Below, piece by piece: positions 25,352-35,891 of a stretch of 64,000 nucleotides of DNA. The stretch lies in NCBI RefSeq assembly GCF_000022545.1, contig NC_012883.1, positions 496,001 to 560,000 of the forward strand. The letters are read 5' to 3'. The notes below the pieces were generated by a model. That model made no database searches. It worked only from the letters and a program-made list of their open reading frames with translations, and was not told the origin of the DNA. The position numbers were made by a program, and so were the translations under genes. Origin of the DNA: Thermococcus sibiricus MM 739 (GTDB lineage Archaea > Methanobacteriota_B > Thermococci > Thermococcales > Thermococcaceae). The stretch's first letter is position 1. The number at the start of each line of letters is the position of its first letter.

Positions 25352-25412
25352 ATCACCTCAGGTGGGGATAAAACGTCGTCATCATTCGGCTGGGATGACA
25401 CTCATCATCGGT
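25352..25412 (-). ncRNA. probable C/D box sRNA (2'-O-methylation guide)
   Basis: On the minus strand the order is box C ATGATGA, a 12-13 base guide GTGTCATCCCAG, a D'-like CCGA, C'-like ATGACGA (or ATGATGA), a guide CGTTTTATCCCCAC, and box D CTGA, within about 55 bases. These sizes fit archaeal C/D sRNAs, whose guides direct methylation 5 bases upstream of D and D'. The D' box departs from CTGA by one base. No separate TATA box is seen, so it may be processed from the transcript of the downstream gene. Confidence 0.5.
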
Positions 25413-25423
25413 TCGCAACTCAA

Positions 25424-25442
25424 AAAGCCCTATTAGGGCTTT
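25424..25442. repeat. perfect 9-bp inverted repeat
   Basis: AAAGCCCTA-T-TAGGGCTTT is perfectly symmetrical. With the flanking A and T runs it could end transcription on either strand, just upstream of the C/D-like RNA. Confidence 0.6.
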
Positions 25443-25613
25443 GTTTCCGAAATTGGGCCCAATTACGTGACCGAATATCATCGGTTTATCCCCCATGTCA
25501 TCCCCCACTTTTCAAACTTAATTTCAAAGGAGCCTTAATAAGCTTTTGCTCTCAAAATAAAGAAAATCCTAGAAAGTTTGGTTTATGTCATCGGTTTACC
25601 TGTCGAGATGAAA

Positions 25614-26093
25614 CTATGTCTTTTCTGTTTTCATTAACTCGTGTTTCAACTGGACTTGCCTCTCAAGAATTTTAGTACTTAAGTCCTTAAACTGAGCTTC
25701 ATCAATTAGAGATCTGTAGGCAAACAATAGATCCGTAGCCGCCTCAATGTGTCCATCATCTAACAAGATTTCGATAACATCAATAACAACCTTCCTCACG
25801 TTTTCATCTTTCGAAGATTTCCTTAGTATTTGTTCGCGATATTCCTCCACCAAAGAGTCCAAAATATTGACAGGCTCTCCTCGCTTTCTCTTGAGACGCA
25901 ACATTTTAGCTGCATTGCCAATATTCCGCACAAGAATTGGATCTTGTTCTAAGAACACTTTTGTAAAGACCATCCCAACTGCTATTAGATCTGCATATGT
26001 TACTTTATCATTTCCGAATATTTTCTTCAAATTATCAAGATAATTGTATTCATCAATGTTAACTCTAATAATCTTGGACTTCTCTTCTCCCAT
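25614..26093 (-). CDS. unrecognised helical protein, 159 aa
   Basis: No family recognised. The protein appears almost entirely helical and highly charged, opens with a ribbon-like segment (KSKIIRVNIDEYNYLDNLKKIF) reminiscent of antitoxin or DNA-binding N-termini, and contains KMLRLKRKRGEPVNILDSLVEEYR. GGTGACT precedes the ATG at 26093, so the GTG at 26105 is not needed. It has no close co-oriented neighbour. A DNA-binding or scaffold role would be a guess. Confidence 0.6.
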   Translation of the reverse strand: MGEEKSKIIRVNIDEYNYLDNLKKIFGNDKVTYADLIAVGMVFTKVFLEQDPILVRNIGNAAKMLRLKRKRGEPVNILDSLVEEYREQILRKSSKDENVRKVVIDVIEILLDDGHIEAATDLLFAYRSLIDEAQFKDLSTKILERQVQLKHELMKTEKT

Positions 26094-26225
26094 AATAGTC
26101 ACCAATTTCAGTTTACTCTATTACCTTAAAAGTTTACTCCTAATGACATACCCCGTTTAACTCAATATCCTTCGTCACTATGTTTTTAAATTGCGATTTA
26201 CAATATTTTATTGGAGGGCATGAGC

Positions 26226-26603
26226 ATGAAAATAATTGTTTGGTACGTTATGGAATCAAAAACCCTCCGGTACATAATTGCCGAGAACATTCAAATAACA
26301 AGAAGAAACAACATTGATTTGATTGAGCTTCCAAACGGGGCAAGCAGTGTGATAAGTTCTGGAAGAATACGCACAAATGCGAGAACAGAGGACGTTCTTA
26401 TTGAGCTCTGCCTTGCTGGTGTTGGAGAGGTAGTACTTCTTCGTGAGGCAGGCATTGACAGAATAGCATTCATCTATGATGATTTCGAGCTAGATCGAGT
26501 GTTCACAGAGGTTCCAGAGCTGAGAACTATCGGTCTTGAAAATAAAGATATTGACCCAGTAGAACCAACGCCTCAAAAAAGTTCCTCGCCTATTGAACAT
26601 TGA
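26226..26603 (+). CDS. unrecognised protein, 125 aa
   Basis: No family recognised. Residues 1-50 look beta-rich (MKIIVWYVMESKTLRYIIAENI, then IDLIELPNGASSVIS), followed by DVLIELCLAGVGEVVLLREAGIDRIAFIYDD, which reads like a small alpha/beta domain, and a Pro/Ser-rich C-terminal tail of about 15 residues that is probably disordered. GGAGG at 26213 has the right distance to the ATG at 26226. A TATA-like AAATTGCGATTTACAATATTTTA region lies upstream. Confidence 0.65.
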   Translation: MKIIVWYVMESKTLRYIIAENIQITRRNNIDLIELPNGASSVISSGRIRTNARTEDVLIELCLAGVGEVVLLREAGIDRIAFIYDDFELDRVFTEVPELRTIGLENKDIDPVEPTPQKSSSPIEH

Positions 26604-26711
26604 AACAAAGGGATTTTTGCCCGATAATCTTTTTGTTTGGGAAAATGAAAAAATAATGTAAGATTGGAGGATACATCAGGGAGAAAAAGAAATTTTGCAG
26701 AGGAATGGGCT

Positions 26712-29336
26712 TTAAAGCCTACTTTCCAAACTTTCCACTTCCTGCACTTGGGAAACACCGGCTACGTTTCTGATGAGATAAAGAGTGTCAGCTACTGTTT
26801 CAAGTTCTGGATGGTGAGTAACTATCACAACCTGTGGAATGGCTCCTTCCGACTTAAAGAACCTGTCCAGTATCTCCACAAGGTCTTTTCTACGCTCTTC
26901 GTCTAAGTGAGTTGTTGGTTCGTCCATTATGACTATCGATAGACTTTTCGAAAGGGCCCGAGCTATTGCTAGCCTTAACGCTAGTGCAACGGCGACTTTT
27001 TCACCACCACTTAAGGTAGATATTGGAACTTCCACAGAGTTCTTTACAACAGTTATGTCAAAATCTTCGCTTAAATAGATGTCTGTGATGTCCATATTAA
27101 AGTTCTCGATGTATCCCGTTGCTAACTCGGAGATAATTGGGGCTATTTTTTGCCGCAGGAGTCTTTGAACACCGTCACGATGATAGGCGCGCCTAATACG
27201 CTCTAAATCATTTAGGAGCTTTTTAATCTTATCTAGCTCTGCCTTGAGATTATTACGTTTTTCTTCGAGCTCTTTTATTTCCGCTTCCACTTCAGTTAGA
27301 TCTTTTAAGTTCTTTTCTAATGATTTAGTCTTCTCTTCGAGTTCAGTTTTAGTACTCTCAAATTTTCTTAATAGTTCTTCGTGTTCTTTTCTAACTTTCT
27401 CATGGTGTTGCTTATCGTATCCAAGTTTTTTAATCTCTTCTTGGAGCTCATGTTTCTTATTTTCTAGTTTTCTTAGTTTTTCCTGTGCTTCTTTGATATC
27501 TTCGAGCAATTTTTCATATCTATCTGCGATTGGCTTTAGCCTATCATATTCTTCCTTTTTCTTTCTTAATTCCTTCAGTTCATTTTCCGGATCTTCGGGC
27601 TTCTCTCCGATCTCTTCAATAAGCTCATTGAGCCTCTCCTCAATCTCTTTTATCTCCGATTCGATCTCTGAAATTTTTGGTCTGATGTCATTTTCGAGAT
27701 TATTAAGTTCCGTTATTATTCCTTCCAATTCTGTGTAATGCTTCGCAAGTTTTTCTTTCATCTCCTCTATCTCTTTTTGTAATTGCTCAATGCGCTCTAC
27801 GTTTATTTTAGATACACGTTCAATTTCTTCTTTTATTGTCCTCTTTTGATTCTCCGCTTCCTCAATTTCTCTTCTAATTTGTTTCACTATTTCTTCTAAA
27901 GATTTTATTTCTTCCTCCATTTCATGCTTTACTCTATCTCTATGTTCCGGGGTTAGTTTTGTTTTACAAACGGGGCATGCCTCTGATTCACCGAGCATGT
28001 CCAATGCTTTTCTTAAGTCATTTATTCTTCCCGATACTTCACCGAGTTCTTTCCTTAGGCCAGATACAATATTTTCTAGCCTTTTCTCCTCCTCTTTAAG
28101 CTCCTTCAATTTCTTCTCTTTAGCTTCAATTGTTGGCTCGGGTAAAAACTTTAGAGCTTCAGAAATCAATTTTTCAAGCTCTTCTGTGTCCTTCTTTATT
28201 TGGGCTACAGTGCTTCTTACTAGTGTGGAAATTGTTGTAGTGGATTTTTCAATCTCTGATAAGTCTGTTGGTACCTCTATGAACTCCTCGCCAACTTCTA
28301 TGTATTCAACATACACCTTACACGATTTCATTGCCTTATTAGCTTCCTCTCTTATGGCTGATATTTTGTTCAAATCCTTCTCTAACTGTTCTTTTTTTGT
28401 ATTTAACTCCTTGAATTTGTTAAACTGTTTAATGTACTCCTCCAAAAGAGGTATTTTTCTTATTTCTCCCTCTAATTCCTTCAATTTCTCTTTGGCCTTT
28501 TTGGATTCATTTAGGTCTTCTTCGAGTTTCTTAATTTGTTCCTGTACTAATCTTATGCTTTCAATTATTTTGGTTAACTCTAGCATTAGCTCATTGTATC
28601 TCTTTTCTTTCGCATTTAATTCGTTCAACTCTCGTTCAATAGCACTAAGTTGTTGACTAAGGCTTTTTAATTTTTGTTTAAGCTCTTTTATTTGCCTGTT
28701 TAACTCTTGTATTTCTTGTTTGAGTTTGTCTCTCTGTTCATATTTACTCTTTAATTTTCCTTCAATTTCTGCGATCTCTTTTTCCAACTCATTTTTAACT
28801 TGTTCAAAGTAGTAAATTACTTCTCTCATAAACTGCCAGGCTTTCTCTAACTTTTCTAACCCTAGCAGTCTTCCGATGACCTCTTTTCTTTTTGCCGGTG
28901 CTTGGTCTAGTAAAGAAGTTATCTCTCCCTGCCTGATCAGAATGGAGTTAATTGCCGAATCTCTATCGAGGCCAGTTATTGCCTTGAGTTGTGTTTGGAC
29001 TTCGTAGACCCCTTCGGCTATTAATATTCCCTCATCGGCTCTGTAAAGTTTGTAAACTGGAGCTCCATCTTTTTTTCTCTCCCAGAATATGCGGTAGGGG
29101 ACTCCTCCCTCTTCGAACTCCAACTCAATTCTAGCGCGATCACGGCCTCTACGGATTACGTCATTCCAGTTTTCACCACGTGGCCTGTGATTGAACAGTG
29201 CCACAAAGATTCCATCAATTATTGAGGTTTTGCCAGCCCCATTCGGGCCCATAAAAACTGTAACTCCCAGTGGAAATTCAACTGTGGTGTTATTGTGTGA
29301 GAGGAAGTCGTTAAGAGAAATGCGTTTGAGTATCAT
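26712..29336 (-). CDS. rad50: DNA double-strand break repair ATPase Rad50
   Basis: SMC-like ATPase that tethers DNA ends with Mre11. The 874-aa protein has Walker A GPNGAGKTS near residue 35, two long coiled-coil arms, the zinc hook CPVC near the middle, and the C-terminal lobe with signature LSGGEKVAVALALRLA and Walker B IVIMDEPTTHLDEE. Its start ATG at 29336 overlaps the mre11 stop as ATGA, and GGAGGAGG lies before it, so the two are translationally coupled. It is the last gene of the operon. Confidence 0.97.
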   Translation of the reverse strand: MILKRISLNDFLSHNNTTVEFPLGVTVFMGPNGAGKTSIIDGIFVALFNHRPRGENWNDVIRRGRDRARIELEFEEGGVPYRIFWERKKDGAPVYKLYRADEGILIAEGVYEVQTQLKAITGLDRDSAINSILIRQGEITSLLDQAPAKRKEVIGRLLGLEKLEKAWQFMREVIYYFEQVKNELEKEIAEIEGKLKSKYEQRDKLKQEIQELNRQIKELKQKLKSLSQQLSAIERELNELNAKEKRYNELMLELTKIIESIRLVQEQIKKLEEDLNESKKAKEKLKELEGEIRKIPLLEEYIKQFNKFKELNTKKEQLEKDLNKISAIREEANKAMKSCKVYVEYIEVGEEFIEVPTDLSEIEKSTTTISTLVRSTVAQIKKDTEELEKLISEALKFLPEPTIEAKEKKLKELKEEEKRLENIVSGLRKELGEVSGRINDLRKALDMLGESEACPVCKTKLTPEHRDRVKHEMEEEIKSLEEIVKQIRREIEEAENQKRTIKEEIERVSKINVERIEQLQKEIEEMKEKLAKHYTELEGIITELNNLENDIRPKISEIESEIKEIEERLNELIEEIGEKPEDPENELKELRKKKEEYDRLKPIADRYEKLLEDIKEAQEKLRKLENKKHELQEEIKKLGYDKQHHEKVRKEHEELLRKFESTKTELEEKTKSLEKNLKDLTEVEAEIKELEEKRNNLKAELDKIKKLLNDLERIRRAYHRDGVQRLLRQKIAPIISELATGYIENFNMDITDIYLSEDFDITVVKNSVEVPISTLSGGEKVAVALALRLAIARALSKSLSIVIMDEPTTHLDEERRKDLVEILDRFFKSEGAIPQVVIVTHHPELETVADTLYLIRNVAGVSQVQEVESLESRL

Positions 29337-30487
29337 TTGTCTTCCTCCTCCAAGTATTTTCTGCAAACCTCAATACTTCCCTCCAGATCATTTATCCAGA
29401 GATGAGAGTATAGTTCGAAAGCCAAATTACCAAGCTTCTCGTCTCCAAGATACTCAACGAAGAGCCTCCTAAGGTCTCCTATCTCCTTGATGTTATTTGG
29501 TGTTAAGTTTGTAGGAACATTAGTTCCAATAAAATGAATGTCGTATCGTAAGATCCTATAAGGAACAAGCTTTTCTAGTATCTCACGTATTTTCTCAATC
29601 AACTCGGCTTTCCTGATAATATCTCCTTGGACGTTTATTTTTAATATTGGCGCTTTTGTTACAGAGGTTCCTTCCCCAATAATGTCTTGGAGAAACGCTC
29701 CCAACTCATTGATAATATCTTTCTCTTGAGTGTAGGATACTTCAAATTGCGGTCGTATTGATTCTAGGTCTATTTTGTGAATTTCAGGCAGGTCCCCATC
29801 AAGGTCAACAATGTAAAACCCCTTACCTTTGTCTTTCCAAGAAGAAATTTCACTCTTTCTCATTATCTCTGTAGAACCAGAATACGCCAAGTAGCTTCTT
29901 CCAAATGATTCTACGGTTCTCGAATGTATGTGGCCGAATGCATAGTAGGAAATTTCCCGAGGTAGGTCAACCATTTCGAGCTCATAAGCTCCTTCAAAAG
30001 GCAAGAATTTCTTAATTGCTTGATGGGCAATTAGTACACTCTTGTTGTATTCCTTGGCGAGGTGATCAACTTTTGATAACTCTTCCTTCAGTAAATCAAC
30101 TCTTCTTCCTTTGAGGTTAGATATTCCAAAGAACGCGACCCCGTTAAGAACCACTTTTTGAACTTTTCCAATCCCAAGGATGGGTAAATCCAAGAGCATT
30201 TGGGGAGGCATTGCTTTTCTCCGGGGTGTGTCGTGTTCTCCGAGCACTGTTAATATCTTTATGTTGTGTTCTCTCAATTTTCGGATCCCCTCTTTTGCCA
30301 CATAGAGAGCCTTTATTGGAGGTCGGGGAGAATCAAAAAAATCGCCTGCATGGACAAAAACATCAACTCTTTCTTCAATCATTTTTTCAACGGCTTCATT
30401 GAATGCTTCGTAAATATCGTTTTCCCTCTCCTCGAGGTTGTATTGTCGGTAACCAAGATGAGTGTCGGCTATGTGTGCTATTCTCAT
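29333..30487 (-). CDS. mre11: DNA double-strand break repair nuclease Mre11
   Basis: Manganese-dependent nuclease of the Mre11-Rad50 complex. The 384-aa protein carries the calcineurin-like phosphoesterase motifs in order: HIADTHLGY, HAGDFFDS, GEHD, IAHQA and FGHIHS. The third motif is usually GNHD with Asn as a metal ligand; here it is GEHD. The C-terminal region would bind the Rad50 coiled coil. It overlaps the preceding 210-aa gene and rad50 by ATGA junctions. Confidence 0.95.
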   Translation of the reverse strand: MRIAHIADTHLGYRQYNLEERENDIYEAFNEAVEKMIEERVDVFVHAGDFFDSPRPPIKALYVAKEGIRKLREHNIKILTVLGEHDTPRRKAMPPQMLLDLPILGIGKVQKVVLNGVAFFGISNLKGRRVDLLKEELSKVDHLAKEYNKSVLIAHQAIKKFLPFEGAYELEMVDLPREISYYAFGHIHSRTVESFGRSYLAYSGSTEIMRKSEISSWKDKGKGFYIVDLDGDLPEIHKIDLESIRPQFEVSYTQEKDIINELGAFLQDIIGEGTSVTKAPILKINVQGDIIRKAELIEKIREILEKLVPYRILRYDIHFIGTNVPTNLTPNNIKEIGDLRRLFVEYLGDEKLGNLAFELYSHLWINDLEGSIEVCRKYLEEEDK

Positions 30488-31116
30488 CGGGTTCCCTCCA
30501 CTGTAAATACAATTCGTGATGCAACTTCTTTAACATCAAATCTAACACCATTTCTATGCAAGAACTCTATGATGGATTCCTTGAGTCTTGGCTGTGCAAC
30601 TATTACTCCTGAATAATATTCCTCTAAAAACTCTTTAATCGCATCAAGTGCATCTTCATATTCATCTCTTTGGAACTCCGGTACATCCAGAACTCCAAAT
30701 TCTTTTTTTGGTAATTCATCCCCTGCTTTCCTTAGATCCTCTTTTATTCTTTCCTTCACGTACTCAATGGGAACTCCAACTCGTGGAAACTCATTGAATT
30801 CTCTTAGTTTTATTATCATCTTCTGAGTTTCTATTTCAAGTTTCTCGAGTAGTTCTCTAGCCTCAAAAACATACTTCTTTAAATCTTCTGCGATATCCTC
30901 TAACTCCTTCAATTGTTGTAGTGCTTCCTTTCTGGATATTAATCCTTTCTTGTAATCTATTATTATCTGATCTTTATCCTTTTTAAACATCCTAGCTATG
31001 CCCTCTTCTGTAAGGAGGGAAGGAACAATTTCCTCTAAGCCCCTTGACGTTCTTCTGATCTGGGCATTCATTTCTTCAAGCTCAATCAGATTTTTTACAA
31101 GAGTAGGCCTTCGCAT
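30484..31116 (-). CDS. unrecognised 210-aa protein in the herA-mre11-rad50 operon
   Basis: No family recognised. The first 120 residues are helical and likely coiled-coil (MNAQIRRTSRGLEEIVPSLL, then LEDIAEDLKKYVFEARELLEKLEIE), and the last 90 are mixed, ending in RNGVRFDVKEVASRIVFTVEG, a possible beta hairpin. It is placed between herA and mre11, begins 33 bases after herA with GGAGGTGAG before its ATG, and its stop overlaps the mre11 start as ATGA. This position argues for a role with the end-resection machinery, perhaps as a bridging or loading subunit. That is inference only. Confidence 0.8.
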   Translation of the reverse strand: MRRPTLVKNLIELEEMNAQIRRTSRGLEEIVPSLLTEEGIARMFKKDKDQIIIDYKKGLISRKEALQQLKELEDIAEDLKKYVFEARELLEKLEIETQKMIIKLREFNEFPRVGVPIEYVKERIKEDLRKAGDELPKKEFGVLDVPEFQRDEYEDALDAIKEFLEEYYSGVIVAQPRLKESIIEFLHRNGVRFDVKEVASRIVFTVEGTR

Positions 31117-31149
31117 TTGGTCTCACCTCCTACTCCTTCAGGCAAAAAG

Positions 31150-32748
31150 CTACATATCTAAAATATCTCTTATCTCTTTTATTTCTTCTCTTATTATTTC
31201 ATCCTTACTTTCTTCATATTCTTTGGCTTCTTTCAAAGCTTCCGAAAGTCTTGTAACAATATCAATGTCTGCCCCACCTTCTTTGGTCTTTCTCTCTCTT
31301 ATCTTGACCATGACGGGCATCTTGGTCATCTCCCCAACAATAACCGCCTCACCTACATTCAATCCAGGTAAGTCATTAAGTAAGTCCTCGCTTACTTGCT
31401 CTGCACTAGCTCTAACTGCCTTCTGGTCTTCTGGATTGGTCATTCTCATGATTATCTGGCTGTTACACTGGCTTAGAACGTCTTGGTCAATTTTCTGAGG
31501 TCTTTGGGTGAGTAGAATTAAGAATACTCCAAATTTTCTCCCTTCTGCAGCTATTCTCTTTGCTATGCGCTTTGATAGAGTGTTCTCCTTCTTGGGGATA
31601 AACCTATGAGCTTCCTCTACTAAAACAAATACGGGATACTTGTATTTTCCATGTTCTCTCTGATAATACACCTCAGACAAAATTTTGTATGCAATGTAAT
31701 CCGCTACATGGTCACTTAACCCCGAGAGATCCATGACAGAGATGTGTTGTGGCTTAAGGAGGTTCTCTATTGGTGTGGTCACTTCTCCAAAGACTTTTAG
31801 CCCTTTGAGCTTTTCAATGTATTTTATGGCTCTTAATGAATCATTGCTATCCATAGACTCAAGTTTGTTTATTAAGTCTTCAACTGTGTATCTCCCGGGT
31901 TTTTCGTTCTTTAACTCCTTAACAGCATCTCTCACAGCTTTCTGAATATTTAACCACTCATCCCTAATGCCAGTAATTGTGAATATTTCGTCTGGAGAAA
32001 GATCTGAGAACTTAATCTCAAAAGTTTCCATGTGTCCAATATCTTCTTTCGTGTATCTTCCAGTACTCTCGCGAGTTCTGAAGACATCAACTCTTGGCAA
32101 TATTCTTTTTCCGTCTTTACTCTGTGAGATGAAAACATAGTCTGCGTGGGGATCTAGAACTATTACGGTAGCACCTTTATCGTAAAGCTCCTCAAGCAAC
32201 ACTCCTGCAGTGTAACTCTTACCAGCTCCCGTTTGTGCGAGAATTGCGAGGTGTCTTCTGAATCCACGGATCGTCAACTGGACTTTAACTCTGGGTCTAG
32301 TTATTAGATGTCCTATGAAGAGTCCTTCTTCATCGGGATATGAGTAAACTTGGGAGAGAACGTCATCTGGGGCAAGGTAAACGTCTGTTCCGGGATAAAT
32401 TGTGCGTCTTGGCATTAAGACTTTCCCACCCACTGTAAAACCAAGAACCTTAACTTGTGCGAAGTTTCGTGGTTCTATTATTTCAGCGTCTTTGAGCTTT
32501 TCTGCTACTGGATAGGGAGTGTACTCACTTAAACCTGGAGAGTATGAAGTTATTGCAACTATTTGGCCTAAGACTAGTACATCCTTCTCAGTTCCATCTA
32601 CGACTTCTTTCGAGCGGACTACTACATAGTCCCATATTTGGGGTGTTTTTGTGTCCTCTATCGCAAAATAGAATTCCGAATGCGTTGTTTCGCCTACTAC
32701 AACTCCAATTTTCTCAAACGAACCTAACTCTCCTGTAATCTCGGGCAT
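31150..32748 (-). CDS. herA: HerA bipolar DNA helicase/translocase
   Basis: FtsK/VirB4-like hexameric ATPase that drives NurA in 5' end resection. The 532-aa protein has an N-terminal HAS-barrel-like beta domain (residues 1-140), Walker A AQTGAGKSYT near residue 177, Walker B FVLVEEAHRFIP near 360, and the arginine-containing ILLTQRPQKIDQDVLSQCN typical of HerA. Its start lies inside the 3' end of nurA (35 bases of overlap), consistent with coupled expression of the two partners. Confidence 0.95.
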   Translation of the reverse strand: MPEITGELGSFEKIGVVVGETTHSEFYFAIEDTKTPQIWDYVVVRSKEVVDGTEKDVLVLGQIVAITSYSPGLSEYTPYPVAEKLKDAEIIEPRNFAQVKVLGFTVGGKVLMPRRTIYPGTDVYLAPDDVLSQVYSYPDEEGLFIGHLITRPRVKVQLTIRGFRRHLAILAQTGAGKSYTAGVLLEELYDKGATVIVLDPHADYVFISQSKDGKRILPRVDVFRTRESTGRYTKEDIGHMETFEIKFSDLSPDEIFTITGIRDEWLNIQKAVRDAVKELKNEKPGRYTVEDLINKLESMDSNDSLRAIKYIEKLKGLKVFGEVTTPIENLLKPQHISVMDLSGLSDHVADYIAYKILSEVYYQREHGKYKYPVFVLVEEAHRFIPKKENTLSKRIAKRIAAEGRKFGVFLILLTQRPQKIDQDVLSQCNSQIIMRMTNPEDQKAVRASAEQVSEDLLNDLPGLNVGEAVIVGEMTKMPVMVKIRERKTKEGGADIDIVTRLSEALKEAKEYEESKDEIIREEIKEIRDILDM

Positions 32749-34030
32749 TTAGGTTAACCCCCACAAGCTCTTTGAATTTAGAAAGGTACATTTCATCAAA
32801 CTCCCTTCTGTGGAATTTTACCTCTCTGTCTACTTTCCATAGCCAGATATTATGGTAGTCCAGTCCTCCATATCCCGTGGCCACAATACTCAGCACTTCG
32901 GAAATGTCCTCGTCTATTGGTTCGGGCCATCCAACATCTTGGAACTTCGTTGACGATCCTATGCAAAACGCTGGCACGTCTATTCTGAGAGGGGAGTCTC
33001 TTTTATCTGGTAGGACGTGGAACGAGACTATTGCAGGGAGTTCTTTGAGGCGGTTTAGAACGACTTTTGCGTACTTCAAGAAGTCTTCATTATTTGAGAG
33101 GATAGGAAACTGAGTTTTCAGATAACCGATGGGGTCCATTTCTATCTGTTTTATTCTCCTAACCCACCTCGAAGATGGGCCGAGAAGTAGAGGGACTGTG
33201 TACCCCGGTTCAGTTATGGAGGCCTCGATTAGTTGATAATCCGGTCTAGGAGTCGTCAATTCCTTCAAAATTTCTTCTAATAAGCCAATATTAGAATACT
33301 TCAACTTTAATTGTTTCACATACTCAAAAGCTTCCCGTTTTCTATCCAGTGATGTTGAGATTAGTTTCTTCGCTTCTTCGTCAGAAACCTCACCCCGCAC
33401 TTCTGGTAGGGTTATTATTTGTTTTATCAAAAAGTCGCGGAAGAACTTACTTCCACTTTCCTTACTGATTCCAATTACTAGAACATTGTTTTCTTTAGCC
33501 AGCTTGAAAAGCTTCATAACTTCTTGGTAATACTTAATGAAAAATTCTCTGTCATTACTTAGAGGACTTTCTATTATTAGGTGGGAGATTCTCCCGTACA
33601 GAGACCCATCGATAAGGACGACTCCATTAAATCCATCGGATATTGCTTTTCTTGCAAGTTTAATTTCAAGGTATTCCATCTTTCTCTGTATGATACTTGT
33701 TACTTCATGAGCAGAACCTTCAGTGTAATCAAAATCTGCTTCCAGTTCCCGATGTTCGTTTTTCCCATTTAGTCCCAATGCTCTGACCACATAAAAGAGT
33801 CCGCCGTTTTTTAGACGCTCCATTTGGTAACTGCTGTCTATTGCCAGAACATTGAAGTCATTAGGCTTTCTTTCATAAGTTTTAATAGAAACGGGGATCC
33901 ACCACTTTTTATTTTTAATTTCTTGTTTAATCAATGATCCAATGCCGGCGGGTGGTTTGTGATATCGATTTATCCAAATATCTCGTTTCTCACTGATTTT
34001 CTTAGAGAACATATCATAAAATCGTGGCAT
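32714..34030 (-). CDS. nurA: NurA 5'-3' nuclease
   Basis: Nuclease partner of HerA in DNA end resection. The 438-aa protein contains the first metal-binding Asp in VLAIDSSYQME near residue 60, a second conserved acidic site in GVVLIDGSLYGR near 140, and VSFHVLPDKRDSPLRIDVPAF near 350, which fit the RNase H-like NurA domain. It is the first gene of the operon nurA-herA-210 aa-mre11-rad50. About 80 bases separate it from the oppositely placed neighbour unit, also on the minus strand. Confidence 0.92.
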   Translation of the reverse strand: MPRFYDMFSKKISEKRDIWINRYHKPPAGIGSLIKQEIKNKKWWIPVSIKTYERKPNDFNVLAIDSSYQMERLKNGGLFYVVRALGLNGKNEHRELEADFDYTEGSAHEVTSIIQRKMEYLEIKLARKAISDGFNGVVLIDGSLYGRISHLIIESPLSNDREFFIKYYQEVMKLFKLAKENNVLVIGISKESGSKFFRDFLIKQIITLPEVRGEVSDEEAKKLISTSLDRKREAFEYVKQLKLKYSNIGLLEEILKELTTPRPDYQLIEASITEPGYTVPLLLGPSSRWVRRIKQIEMDPIGYLKTQFPILSNNEDFLKYAKVVLNRLKELPAIVSFHVLPDKRDSPLRIDVPAFCIGSSTKFQDVGWPEPIDEDISEVLSIVATGYGGLDYHNIWLWKVDREVKFHRREFDEMYLSKFKELVGVNLNARDYRRVRFV

Positions 34031-34108
34031 AAGACATCAGAAGTTTTATCGCGGAAGTCATTAATAAATATTTCTTTTGACAAAGGATAAAAGTATGGAT
34101 TCCCCCAA

Positions 34109-34372
34109 CTAATTTAGCAAGCCCTCAATCAGATTGTAGTCCTCTTCTGGGATTTCTCTCATTGCTTTGCCCATCAAGTGGCCGCTCCACTTCTTCTTGT
34201 TCGTTATGAATTTTAATTTTGGAATTAATGGTTTGAAGTCAACTTCTCCAAGCTCGATAGCGAGTTTTGCATGCTTTAATCCGAGTTTTAGATCTCCTCC
34301 ACCTCCACCACCAAAGAAAGCCCCACCAAGAACAGCAACTTCAGCAAGTTTTTCATCAACCTTTATTTTCAT
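34109..34372 (-). pseudogene. truncated DUF917-like protein
   Basis: An 87-aa frame whose first half, [19 protein letters not shown], resembles the glycine-rich N-terminus of DUF917 proteins, which are usually about 350 aa and sit beside hydantoin-utilisation genes. The rest is unlike that family as I know it, so most of the gene has probably been deleted, though a short separate protein is possible. The start overlaps the racemase stop as ATGA. Confidence 0.45.
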
Positions 34373-35043
34373 CTGACGTCACCCCATACGTCTAATCTTC
34401 TGAGAGCATGAAGAGTCACAGCCCCCGCCGCAATTACCGGGTCAATAACTGGGATGCCAACTTCTTTTTCGAGAATAGGAGCAATCATGATTGTGGACAT
34501 CCCAGTACAGCCCAAAACTATTGCCTCGACTCCTTTTTCTTTTAATCTCCTTGCAGCGTTTATTGCTTCTTTTCGTCCCCAATCTGTCATCAAATCAAGA
34601 GTATTTGAGACTCCCTCCGGATGATCCTCGGCAATCAACTTGTCGCCAAGAACTTCTTTTATTACCCTTGGAGTTTCCTCAGTTAAATTAAGAACACCAA
34701 TTTTCCTAGCATATGCTAAGGCCAGTGCAGAAGCAGAGGATCCAGCTCCAATCACTGGAACCGAAACTAATTTCCTAGCTTCTTCAACAGCAGGGTCTGC
34801 CGCACAGCTTATGATTATAGCATCAACCCCTTCGTTTTCAAATTCTTTTGCCAAGCGCAAAATTTTTGGTTTTGCTTCTTCCTCGGTTTTTTCATCATAT
34901 ATGCCCTTTGGCTGGTCTTCGATGCATCTGCTAATTACTTTCAGTTCTGGAAATGCCTTCTCGATTAATTTTCCATGGAGATTTAGGAGTTCTTCATCCT
35001 GGATTGTCAATACTCTTATTAGTCCAACTGTGTATTTCTTCAT
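34369..35043 (-). CDS. Asp/Glu/hydantoin racemase family protein
   Basis: A 224-aa two-cysteine racemase. The first catalytic Cys is in [16 protein letters not shown] near residue 80 and the second in [12 protein letters not shown] near residue 180, with the phosphate-binding-like loop [14 protein letters not shown] between. The [16 protein letters not shown] segment is typical of hydantoin racemases. It is followed by a truncated DUF917 gene and preceded by a divergent Lrp-type regulator, which may control it. The substrate is not certain. Confidence 0.82.
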
Positions 35044-35210
35044 TCATGACACCCAAAAAGTTGAGATAAGTAGCAGTATATATCCATTGTTAAACCAAAA
35101 TTGTAGTGATACACTGGTTACTTTGGATTGTGCTTAGGAAATATTTATGGTCTAATGAACTAAAAATTTATTAAGCTGTTTTCATGATAAACAAAAATTG
35201 AGGGGACAAA

Positions 35211-35634
35211 ATGAAGAGAAGATTATCAAAAAAAAGATTGGCAAATTATAAGGCTTTTGAAAGAGAATGCTCGAATGAGTGACGCAGAGATTGGGAGAAG
35301 AATCGGGCTTTCAAAATCAGCCGTTAGATGGAGAAGAATAAACTTGCAAAAAAGAGGATGTCTCTTTATATCTGCCTATTTAAGGTTTGATAAACTTGGC
35401 TACAATTATGCGTTCGTACTTATTAAGCTAAAACCTGAAATTCCAAAGGAACAGATCATTCAATTTAAGAAGAAGCTCATGGAACATGAGCATACATTTG
35501 AAGTATACGAAATATGGGGAGATTACGACATCCTAGTAGGAACGTTTGGGGAAGATATCTCAGATCTTAGAAAAAGCGTTGTAGAGATAATACAAGGGGA
35601 AAATTGCATAATTATAAAGTACTATTTGATGTGA
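35211..35634 (+). pseudogene. Lrp/AsnC family regulator, frameshifted in an A8 run
   Basis: A normal Lrp start (MKRRLSKK at the ATG at 35211, after GAGGGGAC) runs into eight A (35228-35235). With seven A it would read on as DWQIIRLLKENARMSDAEIG, the family's N-terminal helix, and join the frame that is open to 35634. That frame holds the helix-turn-helix (ARMSDAEIGRRIGLSKSAVRWR) and the RAM ligand-binding domain (YEIWGDYDILVGTFG). About 140 aa in total. It is divergent from the hydantoin racemase gene. Either sequencing error, real decay or slippage on the A run. Confidence 0.75.
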
Positions 35635-35891
35635 AAACCTTGAAAGGTCTCGAGGTATCTTTCAAGGACGCACTAACTGATTTTTGAAATGAAAACGAAA
35701 AATTGGTTTCGAATGCCCCTTTATCTGGAATTTTTGACACTTCTTTTTCGAAGAATCTACAGAATAGAACCCAAAGGGTTGAGGAGAGGCATCTTTTCGG
35801 TAACATACAGCCGATCACATGAACGAAGATAATGGCAAAGCTTTTTATTTTAATACCATCAACTCTGCCCTAGGCTGGAGGTGAGAGAAAA

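Follow-up and report, generated by a model that had tools for sequence, protein, structure and literature searches.

A rare protein encoded between herA and mre11 in a second, acquired HerA-NurA/Mre11-Rad50 operon of Thermococcus sibiricus, a possible accessory subunit of the encoded machine

What does a protein of no described family do when its gene is held tightly between herA and mre11? The question is raised by a stretch of DNA of 64,000 nucleotides from Thermococcus sibiricus MM 739 (positions 496,001 to 560,000 of contig NC_012883.1), referred to here as the window, in which the original prediction, made from the letters alone, placed an open reading frame of 210 aa at 30484-31116. This frame, gene X (30484..31116), was confirmed from the ORF list, a homologue in another genome and structure models, and it lies on the minus strand, which the prediction had left unstated. 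The predicted 33-base gap after herA, strong ribosome-binding site and stop overlapping the start of mre11 were all found. X starts with ATG 33 nt past the end of herA, and the herA-X spacer (31117..31149, minus strand) holds the strong Shine-Dalgarno sequence GGAGGTGA; GGAGGTGAGACCAA stands directly 5′ of the ATG and is, by eye, the strongest ribosome-binding site among the five operon genes; X and mre11 overlap by 4 nt. Together, the overlap, the spacer and the ribosome-binding site bear out the tight coupling of X to the four other genes. X is a genuine gene rather than a chance frame, because a homologue with 45% identity over its whole length (210 aa) occupies the same herA-mre11 slot in a genome of a different genus (G028), and because the hydrophobic period of its helix 62-108 is rarely reached by shuffled sequences.

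In reading direction, and all on the minus strand, the operon consists of nurA (34030-32714, 438 aa; PF09376, 1.1e-16; DGS/DSS motifs present), herA (32748-31150, 532 aa; PF01935, 2.3e-39; Walker A QTGAGKS, VEEAH and TQRP present), X (31116-30484), mre11 (30487-29333, 384 aa; Metallophos by Pfam) and rad50 (29366-26712, 884 aa; AAA_23 and zinc hook by Pfam; LSGGE and CPVC present). The nurA and herA frames overlap by 35 nt and the mre11 and rad50 frames by 34 nt. All four enzymes are therefore encoded, with Pfam matches and the sought motifs found in HerA, NurA and Rad50, and the identities assigned to the neighbors of X were correct. What the original prediction missed is that the window operon is a second, horizontally acquired copy and not the cell's own.

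The native operon, herA-mre11-rad50-nurA (L040), was located at C1:91.7-98.6 kb of the T. sibiricus genome, which is one contig of 1,845,800 bases, approximately 430 kb from the window copy. It contains four full open frames and is similar to the window operon in its tight packing and in encoding the same four enzymes, but nurA comes last and X is absent. The HerA, Mre11 and Rad50 proteins of the two operons share only about 27-30% identity (30% over 310 aa for Mre11), and native NurA did not match window NurA at E 1e-3. Because the native operon is intact elsewhere, the second copy would be free for another task.

In a tree of 67 Mre11 rows, in which several long branches occur elsewhere, window Mre11 groups with the sequences of L095-L098 with support of 99/98 and apart from all native Thermococcales Mre11. 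These loci belong to the phylum of G060, which we take to be Thermoproteota. Window Mre11 scored 276 bits against the Sulfolobus-type model NF041031 versus 112 bits against the Pyrococcus-type model, both under the curated cut-off. In terms of motif III, the window, G028 and G013 copies and L045 have GEHD, most of the compared Thermoproteota rows have GDHD and the native copy has GNHD. The Thermoproteota operons L095-L101 and L107, of which L095-L098 hold the nearest Mre11 relatives in the tree, are similar to the window operon in gene order (nurA-herA-mre11-rad50) and in HerA/NurA/Mre11 subtype. However, they lack X, and each of their genomes has one Mre11 match.

DNA comparison with five genomes of the same genus delimited a horizontally acquired insert of 10.4 kb (25414..35831, no strand assigned). 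The flanks of the insert are separated by an empty site of 57 bp in G003, G007 and G008 and of 56 bp in G011, and by 592 bp in G010; its right edge lies just before the TFS and PCNA genes, as named from our reading of the ORFs. The cargo besides the operon comprises ORF163, a 130-aa ORF, the remnant of an EVE gene, a racemase gene (PF01177) and a gene that we read as Lrp-like. The insert is a mosaic, because the racemase/Lrp piece is placed elsewhere in G003 at 80% DNA identity. The EVE-domain gene remnant (34116..34254, minus strand, 139 bp, upstream of nurA) was recognized because short segments of the relatives' DNA match it at 72-88%, and a full EVE gene (PF01878) stands at the matching place upstream of nurA in the G028 copy (L041). 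An 87-aa ORF at 34109-34372 of the window is a hybrid, in which 49 residues are 86% identical to the L041 EVE-domain protein and the start matches DNA beside the G003 racemase gene; it marks a recombination joint.

Searches with the X protein gave matches in 8 of 61 genomes at E ≤ 0.01, of which the genome of origin and G028 alone were counted as real. Two of the seven weak-match loci were opened. A 648-aa Pyrococcus frame (L003, E 6.3e-5) was read from its sequence as an indolepyruvate oxidoreductase, and a match in G032 (L006, E 0.005) lies inside what we read as a helical repeat protein; neither is X. Four other frames of 646-648 aa (L004, L005, L007 and L008), which match the same part of X as L003, and L009 (646 aa) were dropped as weak. 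An X profile found 2 of 115 genomes of the same phylum, 1 of 398 sampled Thermoproteota (G379, E 3.6e-4, inside a protein that we read as a sensor kinase and not X) and 0 of 151 genomes of a further phylum, that of G059, in a search run without a positive control. No X homologue away from such an operon was thus found in these 115, 398 and 151 genomes of three phyla, and the displaced orthologues that would have spoken against the original prediction were not found. Pattern scans of larger collections were without result for NurA and X in genome_contigs, for X, NurA and HerA in viral_contigs, for X and NurA in plasmids and for X in phages; these scans used two to six short peptide patterns and missed the known G028 and G013 relatives, and are weak evidence of absence.

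The accessory Mre11 is itself found in only 3 of the 115 genomes of the phylum, namely the window genome (G000), G013 and G028. Both X and the accessory Mre11 are absent from all 12 other genomes of the same genus, five of which are less than 90% complete or split into hundreds of contigs. The G028 copy (L041) has the order nurA-herA-X-mre11-rad50, and the G013 copy (L042) has the order nurA-herA-mre11-rad50, with X absent and 11 bp between herA and mre11. Among 36 further loci, 14 without herA beside mre11 were left out, and none of the 22 remaining herA-mre11 junctions, 10 of them with the HerA type of the window by best BLAST hit, has room for X; the largest gap, 216 bp at L098, accompanies a shortened mre11 frame. 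X is a rare, optional add-on of the accessory operon, because neither the most closely related Thermoproteota operons nor the G013 copy, one of three in Thermococcales, contains it. For the same reason, and because the native operon has no X while the operon that has it is the acquired second copy, the role of a stable partner in the archaeal resection operon, which the original prediction implied, is not supported. X would most simply have entered the operon during its transfer to Thermococcales and then disappeared from G013, the alternative being two independent gains. X also diverges faster than its neighbors, with 45% identity between the window and G028 versus 60-75%.

The G028 and G013 copies form a natural pair in which the machine can be compared in the presence and absence of X. 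Their DNA is approximately 95% identical over nurA and the greater part of herA, and the same holds from the mre11 start codon into rad50; their proteins are about 96% identical (421 of 436 residues for NurA, 483 of 498 for the HerA core and 365 of 380 for Mre11). One sharp difference covers the last ~31 residues of HerA, of which only 11 of 31 are identical, along with X itself, which G028 has and G013 lacks. The other is the Rad50 coil, which is 65% identical between the window and G028 over 494 aa, whereas the G013 coil shares about a third of its residues with each of them. The G013 accessory rad50 (L042:9807-13484) has 1225 codons, an in-frame TGA and a coil ~350 residues longer than those of its relatives, and its interruption reflects either a broken gene or a sequencing error. 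X thus changed in one lineage along with the tail of HerA and the coil of Rad50. This joint change would fit an X that contacts the HerA tail and the Rad50 coil, and it could equally be the outcome of gene conversion from one X-less donor or of decay, the latter because the G013 Rad50 is interrupted. The idea that the HerA tails of X-containing operons are adapted to X was given up for the weaker statement that the three changes coincide, as these tails also score well against the tails of X-less Thermoproteota.

AlphaFold models of window X and G028 X, each built from a two-row alignment of the two X sequences known, agree with each other, including the C-terminal fold. Helices are predicted at residues 3-30, 37-56, 62-108 and 117-132, with the helical or coiled-coil part at about residues 3-108, followed by beta-alpha-beta-alpha-beta-beta from about 138 to 208. 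The mean pLDDT values were 69.6 and 64.4 and the pTM values 0.38 and 0.36, with pLDDT of 70-88 in the C-terminal domain. By Fourier test, helix 62-108 has a 3.5-residue hydrophobic period that was reached by 3 (window X) and 2 (G028 X) of 2000 shuffles; this test, used in place of a dedicated coiled-coil program, suggests that the helix is coiled-coil-like. The predicted layout of a coiled-coil first half and a mixed C-terminal domain therefore agrees with the helix periodicity and with the alpha/beta domain in both models.

The C-terminal domain of window X aligned with 3hz7 (SirA-like; Z 9.7, rmsd 1.9, 68 aligned), 3fau (Smr; Z 8.5, rmsd 1.6, 61 aligned) and 1nh9 (Alba; Z 7.6, rmsd 2.4, 67 aligned), the G028 model gave Z of 9.0, 8.3 and 7.4 with the same structures, and IF3-C reached Z of about 7. 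Z values of 7-9.7 are at the level where common arrangements occur, and the absence of other families from the fold search proves nothing. Several of the SirA/TusA, Smr, Alba and IF3-C folds bind nucleic acids. X as modeled resembles this fold group in the strand and helix order of its C-terminal domain but has an extra long helical N-terminal part and no Pfam sequence match, no Alba, Smr or IF3-C profile having matched window X up to E 1 or G028 X up to 0.1. Foldseek and a viral-structure search returned no match for X at E ≤ 0.001, and no sequence relative below E 0.06 was found in the PDB. FHA or BRCT domains define the Nbs1/Xrs2-type partner of Mre11-Rad50, and Pfam matched neither in X up to E 1. 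An AF0941-like assignment (PF14591) was rejected, with 16.8 and 19.8 bits against a cut-off of 22.6 and only in the helical part. Window X belongs to no family in NCBIfam, PADLOC or PHROGs, its Pfam matches were sub-threshold only, and G028 X had one weak PHROG match (E 0.0066). To this extent, that window X matches no described family above cut-off, the statement that it has no described function stands. The C-terminal half is net acidic in window X (pI 4.99) and basic in G028 X (pI 8.66).

The setting of the related copies is rich in defense and mobility genes. The G028 copy adjoins the EVE gene, an Argonaute-like gene (Piwi, 2.6e-11) and an integrase gene (PF00589, 1.3e-4, below cut-off; PHROG integrase, 5e-8), and the G013 copy adjoins a DUF1156 methylase gene. 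No integrase was found among the part of the window insert ORFs that was scanned. This setting suggests that the operon may be used against invaders. Downstream of the Argonaute-like gene in the same region of G028, there is also an AbiEii-type toxin gene (L142:4899-5933; PF08843, 4.9e-23).

HerA-NurA of T. kodakarensis is reported to digest the two strands of dsDNA whatever the type of end, and an antiviral role for HerA-NurA has been proposed for Thermococcus (PMC12977600). Mre11, Rad50 and HerA are reported to interact in Sulfolobus (PMC2288612). The DUF4297-HerA (PMC11291478) and SIR2-HerA (cited in PMC12977600) anti-phage systems are similar in combining a HerA ring with a nuclease partner. 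However, the partner here is NurA together with Mre11-Rad50, X has no counterpart in those descriptions, and Pfam found no DUF4297 or SIR2 domain in the operon proteins. The TdtA/NurA-like pair of Thermus ICETh1 is likewise an island-borne pair of the NurA-HerA type, but its role is DNA donation, and the accessible part of the report names no Mre11-Rad50 or X-like protein (PMC5365140). Titles and the opening lines of abstracts in the literature on T. sibiricus, T. barophilus, Mre11 and HerA gave no account of a second operon, nor did the accessible part of the literature joining Argonaute, NurA and HerA.

Our data lead us to favor, tentatively and at somewhat less than even confidence, the reading that X serves the acquired HerA-NurA/Mre11-Rad50 DNA-end-processing machine on this genomic island as an accessory adaptor subunit without catalytic activity. 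X is probably not a general factor of DNA repair but a helper subunit of the transplanted machine. Its translation falls between those of HerA and Mre11, and X may dock with its long helices on HerA-NurA and/or on the Rad50 coiled coils, while its Alba/Smr/IF3-C-like C-terminal domain may touch DNA or another protein; for window X, DNA binding is not favored because of the acidic C-terminal half. X would then help to steer HerA-NurA, which degrades dsDNA, to ends that Mre11-Rad50 has opened, and the most plausible target would be invading DNA. The adaptor reading is favored because X occupies one and the same slot in two genera, with the 4-nt overlap and strong ribosome-binding site, and has no homologue away from the operon; because the native operon is intact and the accessory Mre11 nests with Thermoproteota; and because the G028 and G013 copies are flanked by the genes described above. 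It is also consistent with the absence of X from G013, where the HerA tail and the Rad50 coil, the parts that X would be expected to touch, have been replaced as well, with the shared C-terminal fold of both models, which has nucleic-acid-binding folds among its top matches, and with the reported interactions (PMC2288612) and the proposed antiviral role (PMC12977600). Counting against it are the resemblance of the HerA tails of X-containing operons to X-less Thermoproteota tails, the restriction of the linked change to one lineage with a stop in Rad50, fold Z scores at the level of common arrangements with low pTM and no Foldseek match, the small number of X sequences available, two, and the failure of PADLOC to name a family for X or for this NurA.

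The main rival to the adaptor reading is restraint of the nuclease, in which X would be an inhibitor or gate that prevents the foreign HerA-NurA from attacking the host chromosome before it is required and so lets the cell tolerate the acquired copy beside the native one. A nuclease that degrades both strands from any end (PMC12977600) would need such control when present in a second copy, the strong ribosome-binding site would give an excess of X, and the acidic C-terminal half of window X could mimic DNA. Nevertheless, we regard restraint as unlikely, since the C-terminal half of G028 X is basic and the G013 copy exists without X, though with its Rad50 broken. An equally unlikely explanation is that the operon simply adds repair capacity, with X as a lineage-specific repair cofactor that has no role in defense. 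The same operon type does look ordinary in Thermoproteota, where 131 of 398 genomes match at E ≤ 1e-40, nearly all with one match (G367 has two), and the order nurA-herA-mre11-rad50 has been kept. However, a second Mre11 is rare and patchy in the phylum of the window, and the proximity of the G028 and G013 copies to EVE, methylase, integrase or Argonaute-like genes is unlike that of a housekeeping gene.

That X is a passenger of unrelated function, captured between herA and mre11, is less probable still; it would account for the two known members, for their faster divergence and for the absence from G013, but not for the same slot in two genera, the tight spacing and the lack of homologues found elsewhere. 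Least probable of all is a machine for DNA export or import, with X as a coupling protein. The precedent is ICETh1, whose island-borne pair is reported to be required for DNA donation (PMC5365140), and an integrase gene does adjoin the G028 copy; the ORFs of the window insert that were scanned include none, however, and all three copies retain Mre11 and Rad50, if broken in the case of G013 Rad50.

The adaptor reading can be extended to a more specific scheme, which we consider possible but doubtful. Islands of Thermococcales would have received a complete crenarchaeal-type HerA-NurA/Mre11-Rad50 set as a system that destroys the DNA of invaders, with X as a target-choosing subunit that is matched to, and exchanged as a cassette with, the HerA tail and the Rad50 coil. 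Whether HerA-NurA serves end resection or the destruction of foreign DNA is described as an open question (PMC12977600). Since T. sibiricus still has its own operon, which would supply the essential function, straightforward deletion of the foreign copy with its additional subunit could tell these two roles apart.

The left border of the insert is formed by the gene for sR55, a C/D-box small RNA (25356..25412, minus strand; Rfam RF01307, 63.1 bits). Next to it lies ORF163 (25614..26105, minus strand), a member of a family of small proteins whose genes, in three genera, separate sR55 from variable genes. This family is small and patchy (5 of 61 genomes); its members adjoin sR55 in the window genome, G013 and G031, and one precedes an Eco57I-type restriction-modification gene in G002. 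The start of ORF163 is predicted, from our reading, to resemble a ribbon-helix-helix DNA-binding part. The 5′ side of sR55 is a hot spot, as the window insert, the G013 operon and the G031 ORF163 gene are all located there (window 25356-25600; L042:14397-14460; L143:6160-6226). The sequence TCATCGGTT, part of the sR55 start, occurs in three copies within 192 bp at the border of the window insert and four times in the whole window, compared to 0.3 expected in 64 kb.
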